Source: Bacteroidales bacterium (GTDB lineage: Bacteria > Bacteroidota > Bacteroidia > Bacteroidales > VadinHA17). Taken from it: 45,547 nucleotides of DNA. Where the stretch lies: the NCBI GenBank assembly GCA_025358455.1, contig JANYJP010000089.1, forward strand, positions 1-45,547, read 5' to 3'. Made by a program: the position numbers and the translations under genes. The notes below the pieces were generated by a model that saw only the letters and a program-made list of their open reading frames with translations, was not told where the DNA came from and ran no database searches. This document shows, piece by piece, positions 3,216-7,210 of this stretch (position 1 is its first letter; each line of letters opens with the position of its first letter).

Positions 3216-4511
<1,296 letters not shown>

Positions 4512-4534
4512 ATAAAGAAAATTTAAATAGGAAG

Positions 4535-4564
4535 AAGGCTGTCCGTCGGGTGGCCTTTTTTTTT
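4535..4564 (+). terminator. Intrinsic terminator after eno
   Basis: AAGGC at 4535-4539 pairs with GCCTT at 4553-4557, with an inner CCG/CGG stem, and the stem runs into nine consecutive T residues (4556-4564). It lies 23 bases after the enolase stop codon. Confidence 0.85.
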
Positions 4565-4566
4565 GT

Positions 4567-4600
4567 TTTGCAGGGAACTGCCACGATCGTTCCCTGCAAA
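4567..4600. repeat. Perfect 12-bp inverted repeat, function unknown
   Basis: TTTGCAGGGAAC at 4567-4578 is perfectly complementary to GTTCCCTGCAAA at 4589-4600 around a 10-base loop. It starts two bases after the T tract of the eno terminator. Neither strand has a T tract after the stem, so it is not an obvious terminator itself. It could be a REP-like element, a processing signal that protects the 3' end, or a protein-binding site. Confidence 0.7.
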
Positions 4601-4679
4601 GCATGTCACTTCCCGACGTTATTAACAATTATTAACAACTCCTGTTAAAATCGGGTTTATAACATCGGTATTATTTTCA

Positions 4680-4709
4680 TTGATTATTAATAATCCCGGT
4701 GTAAATTTG
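4680..4709 (+). promoter_or_regulatory. Bacteroidota-type promoter for the candidate RNA
   Basis: TTG at 4680-4682 and TAAATTTG at 4702-4709 are separated by 19 bases, an exact match to the primary-sigma consensus of Bacteroidota (TTG, 19-21 bases, TAnnTTTG). Transcription would start near 4714-4716. No protein-coding frame follows for almost 600 bases, but a hairpin-rich segment does. Confidence 0.8.
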
Positions 4710-4714
4710 ATTCA

Positions 4715-5207
4715 TCAGGTGAGCGATAAAAGACTGCTCGAAAGATGTGGAAACGGTAAAAGTTACTTAAATGAAGCAAGATCCGTTTCAGTCAGACCCT
4801 CGGGTCTGCGCACCAGGAGAGCCGAAGCCTGAACTAAGAGGACCAGGCGTCCACGATGTTCAGTAAGTCAACGAAAACCGGAAACGTTCTTTCAGCGATT
4901 GAGTCACAAGGCTTCAGACTACGAAAGGCTTCGGCCCCGGGTTATCTGAAACAGTTGCCTTATCCTTCGGGAAATGAGTAACGGTGCCTGAAAGACACTT
5001 CGTCCCGGAATCCCGCTTAGGCGGGAGAAAGGACAGCCAGAGGGTTCTGCTGTAACAGGCAAAACCTGAAAGCCATGGGTTGCAAAAACGGGTCTTGTAT
5101 CCGATGGAGCAGCCGGTCAGAATAACATTAATCTGACATCGTTAATAACCTCGGTTGTAAACGGTGAATGGGAACTAATCCTAGCGAGTAGTTCCCATTA
5201 TTGTTTT
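4715..5207 (+). ncRNA. Candidate large structured non-coding RNA, family unassigned
   Basis: A consensus promoter lies just upstream (4680-4709) and a strong terminator closes the segment (5167-5208), giving a transcript of about 490 bases with no long open frame. Many local helices can be drawn: GAAACGG (4750-4756) with CCGTTTC (4783-4789); CAGACC with GGTCTG around a four-base loop near 4795; CTGAAC with GTTCAG enclosing GGAC/GTCC (about 4829-4863); GTCC enclosing TCCCGC-TTAG-GCGGGA and GGAC (about 5002-5033); CAGC with GCTG near 5035-5053; TCAGA with TCTGA near 5117-5136. It lacks the universal motifs of RNase P RNA and tmRNA and is not SRP RNA-like. The 5' GTGAG at 4719 and the stretch CGATTGAGTCACAAGG (about 4896) recall domain I of group II introns, but no domain V and no reverse transcriptase were found. 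Confidence 0.6.
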
Positions 5208-5208
5208 A
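5167..5208 (+). terminator. Intrinsic terminator of the candidate RNA
   Basis: AATGGGAACTA at 5167-5177 pairs perfectly over 11 bp with TAGTTCCCATT at 5189-5199 around an 11-base loop, followed by ATTGTTTTAT. It has no coding gene upstream within 650 bases, which supports a non-coding transcript ending here. Confidence 0.8.
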
Positions 5209-5233
5209 TAGCCCCCAGAACAATACATTTTTT

Positions 5234-5285
5234 GATATTCAATTAGTAGGAACGTTGCATGCAACGTTCCTACTAATTGAATATC
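5234..5285. repeat. Perfect 52-bp palindrome
   Basis: The left arm starts GATATTCAATTAGTAGGAAC at 5234 and continues GTTGCA to the centre between 5259 and 5260; the right arm is its exact reverse complement and ends GAATATC at 5285. There is no loop and not a single mismatch over 26 bp per arm. The last four bases of the right arm are the first part of a TAnnTTTG element (5282-5289) in front of the ubiD-like gene, so it may be an operator, a cruciform-forming site or the remains of a small mobile element. It has no T tract typical of a terminator. Confidence 0.9.
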
Positions 5286-5289
5286 TTTG
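5282..5289 (+). promoter_or_regulatory. -7 promoter element of the ubiD-like gene
   Basis: TATCTTTG matches TAnnTTTG and lies 19 bases before the ATG at 5309. The only nearby TTG (5255-5257), inside the palindrome, is 24 bases away, longer than the usual 19-21, so the -33 element is uncertain. The element overlaps the right end of the palindrome. Confidence 0.45.
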
Positions 5290-5308
5290 GATATCATAAA
5301 ACCCAGTT

Positions 5309-7210
5309 ATGAGTTACTCCGGCTTAACAGATTTTATTACAGAACTCGAGAAGAAAAAAGAACTCCTCCGGGTAAAAGCATTTGTTGATCCTGTTCTGGA
5401 GATCACAGAAATTACAGATAGGGTAACCAAAGCTGGCGGAGGCAAGGCTCTTCTTTTTGAAAATAACGGAACAGAATTCCCTGTGCTTATAAATGCTTTT
5501 GGATCTGACAGCCGCATGGCTATGGCAATAGGCAGGAATAATCTGGATGAAGCCGGAATAGAAATTGAAAACCTCTTTGATAAGGTAACAGGTATCAGGA
5601 GTAGTTTCTTAAATAAACTTTCAAATCTTCCCGATTTAATAAGACTGGCGGGATTACTTCCTTCACGACTAAACAAGAAAGGATCATGTCAGCAGGTTGT
5701 TCAACCGGTACCTGACCTTGGAATCCTTCCTGTTCTTAAATGCTGGCCATACGACGGAGGACGATTTATAACTCTGCCAATGGTACATACAATGCATCCG
5801 GAAACAGGTAAAACTAATGTCGGAATGTACAGAATGCAAATTCTTGATAAAAATACTACTGCCATGCATTGGCAGCGACATAAAACCGGTGCCAATCACT
5901 ATGAAGCCTGGAAAATAGCAGGGAAAAGAATGCCTGTATCTGTAGCACTTGGAGGAGACCCTGTTTACGCCTATTCTGCTACAGCCCCCCTGCCTGAAAA
6001 TATCGATGAATATATTCTTGCAGGCTTTCTCAGAAAGAAAAAAGTCAGGTTGGTCAGATGCATTACTAATGATCTCTATGTGCCATTCGATGCCGACATA
6101 GTGCTCGAAGGTTATGTCGATACTTCTGAAGAACTTGTATGGGAGGGTCCATTTGGTGACCATACCGGTTTCTATTCACTGGCCGACTGGTACCCCAAAT
6201 TTCATGTAACCTGTATAACTCATTCAAAAAAAGCTGTTTACCCTGCAACAATTGTGGGTATCCCTCCACAGGAGGATGCATGGCTTGCAAAAACTACTGA
6301 AAAAATATTTCTTGCTCCGGTCAGAATGGCAATACAACCCGAAATATTGGATTTCCATATGCCAGATGCCGGAATTGCACATAATCTTGTTATTGTTAAA
6401 ATAATTAAGTCCTTTCCCGGTCAGGGTATGAAGGTAATAAATTCGCTGTTTGGCGCAGGGCAGATGATGTTTACCAAGTACCTGGTTGTGGTCAGCGGTG
6501 ACGTTGATATCAGAAATTACAAAGAATTATTCCGTCATGTAATTGTGAATCTTGATTTTGAAAAGGATATTTTATTTAGTCGTGGACCTCTTGATGTTCT
6601 TGATCACTCATCCGATAATTTCTCGTTCGGTGGGAAGGCAGGAATTGATGCTACTATTAAGGATAAGGAAGAACACTCAGGAACAATTAATATCGGAAGA
6701 GCAGGAAAACAATCGAGTTCCGGTATTATTAATGATTTATCAGAAATTAAAATCATAAAAAGCTTTAATATCAACCTACTTGAAAATGATATTCCTGTTC
6801 TGATAATTTCAGTTGATCTGACTGAAGATTCAGATGTAATAGGAAAGGTAAAGAGTTTTTTCAGAGCTCATAACACTTATGGGAATTTCAGGTTGATTAT
6901 TGCAGTAGATCATACAGTTGATACCTATGACTTATTTATGGTTACCTGGCAGCTGCTTGGAAACTCAGATCCTTACCGCGACCACGAATATCTTTCCTCC
7001 TCTGCACTTTTTATTGATGGCACTATAAAAGCTTACAGGAAAGGAGGATTTCCACGTAAATGGCCAAATATTGTGTGCTCATCCAATGAAACGGTTTCGG
7101 TGATCGATCAGAAATGGGATTCCTTTGGATTAGGTGCGTTCATTAATTCCCCATCAAGCCATAATTGGACCCTGTGCCGGAAAGGCACAGATGAAATCAT
7201 CGTTGGTTAA
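5309..7210 (+). CDS. UbiD-family (prenylated-FMN) decarboxylase, menaquinone-type
   Basis: UbiD enzymes decarboxylate aromatic or unsaturated acids with prenylated FMN made by a UbiX partner. At 633 residues this is the long form common in Bacteroidota, often annotated as menaquinone biosynthesis decarboxylase. Family landmarks are LLFENNGTEFPVLINAFGS near residue 50, a central PVSVALGGDPVYAYSA block, and DIVLEGYVDTSEELVWEGPFGDHTGFYS near residues 255-290, which holds the conserved acidic residues of the active site. No ubiX or mqn gene is adjacent, so the substrate is not shown by context. The ATG at 5309 follows a TAnnTTTG element and the 52-bp palindrome by a short leader. Confidence 0.85.
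   Translation: MSYSGLTDFITELEKKKELLRVKAFVDPVLEITEITDRVTKAGGGKALLFENNGTEFPVLINAFGSDSRMAMAIGRNNLDEAGIEIENLFDKVTGIRSSFLNKLSNLPDLIRLAGLLPSRLNKKGSCQQVVQPVPDLGILPVLKCWPYDGGRFITLPMVHTMHPETGKTNVGMYRMQILDKNTTAMHWQRHKTGANHYEAWKIAGKRMPVSVALGGDPVYAYSATAPLPENIDEYILAGFLRKKKVRLVRCITNDLYVPFDADIVLEGYVDTSEELVWEGPFGDHTGFYSLADWYPKFHVTCITHSKKAVYPATIVGIPPQEDAWLAKTTEKIFLAPVRMAIQPEILDFHMPDAGIAHNLVIVKIIKSFPGQGMKVINSLFGAGQMMFTKYLVVVSGDVDIRNYKELFRHVIVNLDFEKDILFSRGPLDVLDHSSDNFSFGGKAGIDATIKDKEEHSGTINIGRAGKQSSSGIINDLSEIKIIKSFNINLLENDIPVLIISVDLTEDSDVIGKVKSFFRAHNTYGNFRLIIAVDHTVDTYDLFMVTWQLLGNSDPYRDHEYLSSSALFIDGTIKAYRKGGFPRKWPNIVCSSNETVSVIDQKWDSFGLGAFINSPSSHNWTLCRKGTDEIIVG

Follow-up and report, generated by a model that had tools for sequence, protein, structure and literature searches.

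A large structured RNA family of Bacteroidia with a conserved base and an upstream array of DnaA-box-like sites

Between eno and a ubiD-like gene of a Bacteroidales bacterium of the VadinHA17 lineage lies a segment of about 450 bases with many short complementary stretches. In a preliminary description, this segment was proposed to be either a new RNA family or a free RNA that derives from the 5' part of a group II intron. Which of the two it represents, and what such an RNA might do, is the question addressed here. Coordinates refer to the window, the whole stretch of 45,547 nucleotides that was analyzed; all features of the RNA gene and the array upstream of it lie on the plus strand.

A free-standing RNA gene between eno and a ubiD-like gene

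The RNA gene (4702-5206) is free-standing, with its own promoter of the Bacteroidota type and its own terminator. Its upstream neighbor is eno (3222-4511), followed by a terminator-like hairpin that was found by a simple terminator scan (4529-4563), and its downstream neighbor is the ubiD-like gene (5309-7210); both gene names come from the preliminary description and from a reading of the proteins. From the promoter and the terminator, an RNA of about 490 nt is predicted (4714-5205). According to PMC7366714, TAnnTTTG is the -7 consensus of the Bacteroides sigma factor sigma-ABfr and is accompanied by a TTTG -33 element. The promoter (4679-4709), which is kept in relatives, had been called an exact-consensus promoter; this is correct for the -7 element TAAATTTG at 4702-4709, which fits TAnnTTTG, but not for the -33 element, which reads ATTG. 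Stand-alone RNA genes with TAnnTTTG promoters are also described for Bacteroides 6S RNA and other sRNAs of this phylum (PMC7366714), whereas the RNA described here is much larger and no 6S model was among the Rfam matches found.

The terminator hairpin with its T-rich tail (5167-5208) was apparent from the sequence and from covariation counts. Its stem consists of 10 bp (5167-5176/5190-5199) and two further inner pairs and is followed by TATTGTTTTAT, and 99.8% of its alignment cells are paired across 47 aligned relatives, which bears out the earlier assignment. A simple scan of the window missed the terminator, probably because its loop is longer than the 8-base limit of the scan, and also the promoter, which is not of the sigma-70 type. 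The longest open reading frame overlapping 4702-5206 on either strand encodes 50 amino acids, in agreement with the absence of a long reading frame noted before. Positions 4710-5210 fold with a minimum free energy of -167.3 kcal/mol, which is lower than that of 100 dinucleotide-shuffled sequences (z = -4.0).

Between the terminator of the RNA and the ubiD-like gene, about 52 bases (5236-5287) form a perfect inverted repeat. As its 44-base core occurs only once in the genome, the repeat is not dispersed; it may serve as a bidirectional terminator or in regulation.

To place the RNA among known families, the whole window was compared with Rfam 15, and no match was obtained at gathering scores. 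With the threshold relaxed to E <= 10, positions 4500-5400 yielded 17 sub-threshold matches, none at cut-off and none to a group II model; the best one over the RNA was mir-2001 on the terminator hairpin, with 21.3 bits against a cut-off of 74. The loci of twelve relatives gave two matches at E <= 0.1, both at L099:82-170 and away from the RNA. RNase P RNA was rejected as a candidate, since the only RF00010 match of the genome lies elsewhere (G000:C75:25779-26165, 227 bits), which confirms the earlier statement on this point.

The idea of a group II intron remnant goes back to a single 16-nt string, CGATTGAGTCACAAGG at 4895-4910, which in the preliminary description was said to resemble a domain I piece of the lactococcal intron. 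Rfam presumably includes the group-II-D1D4 models, none of which matched the RNA at E <= 10; the conserved unit extends from its own promoter to its own terminator, and domain V and a reverse transcriptase had already been stated to be absent here. A group II origin of the RNA is thus left without support by the Rfam comparison and is highly improbable. The RNA is unlike any catalogued RNA tested, and no paper on it was found among the open-licence papers in PMC.

Conservation of the RNA and of its joined ends

Within its own genome, the RNA was found as a single copy by blastn. Among 98 relatives searched, 55 gave blastn matches. Of these, 53 belong to the genus, which was represented by 58 genomes, and two to other families; in the latter two only the first ~30 bases align, and both loci also carry the same 3' end. 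The RNA is absent from five of the 58 genus genomes, both by blastn and by the covariance model R2 (see below), and for two of these five, G020 and G041, the completeness rating is 98-100%.

Covariation was analyzed in an alignment of 47 of 51 aligned relatives. Left out were L038 (upstream run of N), L051 (inner N gap) and L053 and L054 (central deletion), while L017, L018, L058 and L059 had been dropped earlier as broken or duplicate copies. The consensus structure obtained with RNAalifold comprises 108 pairs. In the alignment, 97.5% of the cells were paired, compared with 91.6% after shuffling and 28-46% when the partners were slid, a percentage that leans towards the structure as this was derived from the same alignment. 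Changes on both sides were found in 52 of the 108 pairs, against a mean of 24.1 in shuffled alignments, and none of 500 shuffles reached this number; these controls ignore the relatedness of the rows. The segment is thus both conserved within the genus and covarying, and together with the lack of an Rfam match at curated cut-offs this supports the proposed reading as a new RNA family that has a promoter and a terminator of its own.

The variable interior (4736-5114) folds, according to the RNAalifold consensus and the pair counts in the 47 genus members, into about 18 helices. In L053 (G037) and L054 (G018), a central domain (approximately 4829-4991) is missing while both ends are kept, which indicates that the RNA is modular; these natural deletion variants would be helpful for dissecting its function.

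Two covariance models of the 3' end were used for genome surveys. With the first (R1), built from the 3' end alone with 23 rows, 87 of the 393 order genomes gave a match at E <= 0.01. The second (R2), with 68 rows from diverse members, likewise matched 87 of 393 at E <= 0.001, distributed over 47 of 206 genera, so that roughly one in five of the order genomes sampled carries a member of this uncatalogued large RNA family. R2 further matched 26 of 291 class genomes, which besides the own genome belong to seven families outside the order, and 8 of 395 phylum genomes, four of which (L294-L297) were rejected as false since the 5' motif of the family was found on neither strand. As the surveys applied strict filters to draft genomes, these counts are lower bounds.

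Upstream of the 3' matches, a 5' motif was found that consists of TAnnTTTG, a short spacer and WYCARGYGAGNGATAAAAG and lies 194-564 nt before the 3' motif. Fourteen of the 15 phylum and class matches outside the training of the models carry the 5' motif and five of five P1 pairs. Of the three P2 pairs, eight of these 14 have all, four have two, one has a single pair and one has none; the check keeps the best-scoring motif combination and so favors pairing. In the fifteenth, L293, the 5' motif is present and the 3' motif has diverged. The member list holds 249 raw and 176 distinct entries, among which at least one double, L169 (245 nt), is spurious. Entry required at least five of six P1 pairs, which biases P1 pairing upwards, while P2 pairing played no part in the selection. 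From L060 on, 23 loci are without a complete motif pair, including the Cognataquiflexum locus L135 and L129 (wrong contig part).

A pattern scan of the genome contigs returned at least 118 stretches, the bearers being mostly uncultured Bacteroidales. Among the matches listed, both motifs occur in Draconibacterium, Maribellus, Tangfeifania, Sunxiuqinia, Aquiflexum, Mariniradius and Pleomorphovibrio, and the 5' motif only in Cognataquiflexum. Two R2 matches per genome were obtained in 11 genomes of the order, with the copies within ~1.5 kb of each other in G095, G129, G212 and G324, and Aquiflexum gelatinilyticum has two copies within ~2 kb. Closely spaced duplicate genes were seen at L057, L093, L113, L122 and L193, some of them clearly differing in interior length (at L122, 564 and 470 nt between the motifs). 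A 5'-motif match in a contig titled uncultured Alphaproteobacteria (L162), beside which no 3' motif was found, may have arisen by chance or represent a fragment or a mis-binned contig. The majority of the order genomes are without the RNA, and since it is also absent from the near-complete genomes G020 and G041, it is not essential in general.

The ends of the RNA were compared in 86 dereplicated members. They are joined by two short helices, P1 of 5 bp (4715-4719 with 5132-5136) and P2 of 3 bp (4732-4734 with 5116-5118), which enclose an internal loop that is nearly invariant across the family (GAGNGAUAAAA/AAUAACNGUA). P1 covaries, with one of its pairs being G-C in 42 and A-U in 42 of the 86 members; a sixth P1 pair is present in the genus and was without family-wide support in this set. 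P2 is paired in 94-97% of the members, compared with 85-89% after shuffling. Most positions of the loop strands GAGNGAUAAAA and ANAAUAACNGUA are invariant. On the 5' side (GAGCGAUAAAA, 4721-4731) one position is variable and the rest nearly invariant; the 3' side (AGAAUAACAUUA, 5119-5130) corresponds to AAUAACNGUA, found in nearly all relatives; at the position that differs, 82 of 86 members have G and the window RNA has U. At the 3' end, P1 is followed by a hairpin (helix 21, 5137-5166) with changes on both sides in six of 11 pairs, and then by the terminator, whereas the interior varies between lineages in size and sequence. On sequence comparison, the constant part of the family is the base made by the two RNA ends and not the string CGATTGAGTCACAAGG. 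Taken together, these data leave little doubt that the locus belongs to an uncatalogued family of conserved and structured RNAs of Bacteroidia.

For the internal loop, a sarcin-ricin or loop-E-like fold remains a guess, as the one pair of variable positions (10/6) shows no covariation. Paired ends with a conserved internal loop are also a feature of Y RNAs, and in outline the two are alike. A protein of the Ro60/TROVE type, the partner of Y RNAs, is encoded in five of the 393 genomes and in none of the 87 that are positive for the RNA. This refutes a Y RNA as a general explanation and makes its probability negligible.

DnaA-box-like sites upstream of the promoter

Upstream of the promoter, an AT-rich array of 9-mers (4619-4662) was found, which, going by the box consensus, are putative DnaA boxes. 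Neither the array nor the class-wide extent of the family had been noticed in the preliminary description. In the window, boxes 1 and 2 both read TTATTAACA (4619-4627 and 4629-4637), box 3 is weak (TGTTAAAAT, 4643-4651) and box 4 has one mismatch (GGTTTATAA, 4654-4662). The paired-box pattern matched once in the window on both strands (4619-4638), with 0.04 matches expected by chance. In the majority of members, the array consists of GTTATTAACA-AT-TGTTAATAAC and, behind it, of TGTKNATA at +24 and +35, counted from the first box.

Across the family, a palindrome (with up to 7 substitutions) is present in 90 of 104 dereplicated upstream regions, in 80 of these 90 at 95-97 nt before P1. Such a cluster of boxes at a fixed place before the promoter would be expected of a member of the DnaA regulon. 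At least one exact 9-mer of the TTAT(C/T)(C/A)ACA type per 70-nt window was found in 86% of the 104 regions, compared with 0.8% of random windows from the same loci. Known clusters of DnaA boxes are oriC, datA, DARS and DnaA-controlled promoters. The array resembles these in its clustered TTATN(A/C)ACA-like boxes of nearly fixed spacing and differs from them in preceding a structured RNA gene and in showing no GC-skew sign of an origin.

The textbook DnaA box is TTATNCACA, or TGTGGATAAC on the other strand. The commonest boxes here are TTATNAACA and not TTATNCACA, which occurs exactly in 11% of the 104 regions. This departure would fit a factor other than DnaA, the RNA then being a stress- or growth-phase RNA without a link to replication. 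Against this, the members L131, L149 and L193 carry TGTGGATAAC at the array position, and boxes 3 and 4 carry TGTG in 23% and 38% of 90 regions. We regard another factor as rather unlikely, and control of transcription of the RNA by DnaA through the upstream array as probable on the strength of these motifs. No paper on DnaA control of a structured RNA in Bacteroidota was found among the open-licence papers in PMC.

Clustered boxes could also mark an origin of replication or a DNA element of a similar kind, with the RNA as a by-product or primer-like transcript. However, the GC skew showed no sign change at the RNA locus in the window, in contig 1 of Draconibacterium sediminis or in a scaffold of 496 kb. 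The RNA is present twice in some genomes, and the covariation points to selection on the RNA itself. An origin at this locus is accordingly very improbable.

In ten genomes, the palindrome was searched genome-wide. The best match lay at the RNA in six (G000, G448, G449, G450, G452 and G453) and elsewhere in G451, and none was found at the RNA in G454, G455 and G456; matches at 3 mismatches are meaningless, as a reversed control pattern matches about as often. When the dnaA loci of ten genomes were inspected by eye, single boxes lay scattered and no comparable cluster was seen. In G451, a perfect copy of the palindrome is located at a site without RNA motifs (L253 ~1490-1545; G451:C1:2146799), together with dense boxes of the TTATTAACA type. 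The site lies ~64 kb from dnaA in this 2.9-Mb single-contig genome and is, judging from these sequence features, a candidate for its oriC.

Probable action in trans and putative role of the RNA

In the genus, eno or ubiD adjoins the RNA in all 50 members analyzed, and both adjoin it in 36. Among members outside the genus, both are found next to it in only 6 of 126. A fixed partner gene next door was therefore rejected: no neighbor is constant outside the genus, and other gene clusters recur only in part of the family. Because no constant neighbor exists beyond the genus, the RNA very probably acts in trans.

Two observations were made on the flanks. Some members of the family (L083, L085, L094, L100, L106, L107, L109, L117, L120 and others) have, downstream and on the opposite strand, a gene for a protein read as DnaG primase (13 proteins). 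Right behind the terminator of the RNA, L057 (~1822-1930) and L068 (after 1588) carry a stretch beginning with GTGTGCCGGGCATGG, which seems to resemble group IIC introns at their 5' end. Such introns insert behind terminators; L065, a locus that spans the place of the L057 stretch, gave no Rfam match.

As a large structured RNA, it belongs to a broad type that has precedents in OLE, ROOL and GOLLD. In PMC12286853, these are described as large structured bacterial RNAs that form homo-oligomers, GOLLD and ROOL being carried by phages or prophages. They share with the present RNA the large size, the extensive structure, a function that is little known or unknown and the discovery by conservation and covariation (PMC12286853). 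It could be argued that the RNA is mainly an RNA-only assembly or scaffold, as its size, many helices and conserved ends resemble this type, with the array reflecting ordinary regulation by DnaA or another factor. In contrast to GOLLD and ROOL, a phage or plasmid element was rejected here, since the exact 5' motif had no match in IMG/VR and the window RNA had no blastn match in phages or plasmids; nor does the RNA have an Rfam match at cut-off. To our knowledge, neither the base of P1, loop and P2 nor the box array occurs in GOLLD, ROOL or OLE. An assembly of this kind is considered unlikely.

With reasonable though limited confidence, we therefore favor, from sequence comparison, an uncatalogued family of trans-acting large RNAs that would probably be controlled by DnaA and would present one conserved partner-binding loop. 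DnaA would bind the array at its fixed distance and either activate or repress the promoter of the RNA, and the output set in this way may be coupled to replication or growth. A single conserved partner, most likely a protein, would bind the invariant loop at the joined ends, and the variable interior may serve as a scaffold or carry lineage-specific contacts. For the internal loop as the binding site of a partner we see an even chance; being nearly invariant, it offers a handle for finding this partner. That a link to replication is the biological purpose of the RNA is put forward tentatively.

The upstream array raises the question of whether DnaA controls a structured RNA in Bacteroidota, and the boldest proposal that it permits is a link to replication timing or growth. 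In its fullest version, which we consider possible and somewhat doubtful, DnaA would directly switch the RNA across Bacteroidia, and a protein-bound GAGNGAUAAAA/AAUAACNGUA loop would feed the state of replication to cell functions or to initiation. The cultured bearers Draconibacterium, Maribellus, Tangfeifania and Aquiflexum make the family accessible to experiments. If this version were true, the family would provide these bacteria with a replication-coupled RNA by which the state of replication may be passed on to other functions of the cell or back onto initiation.
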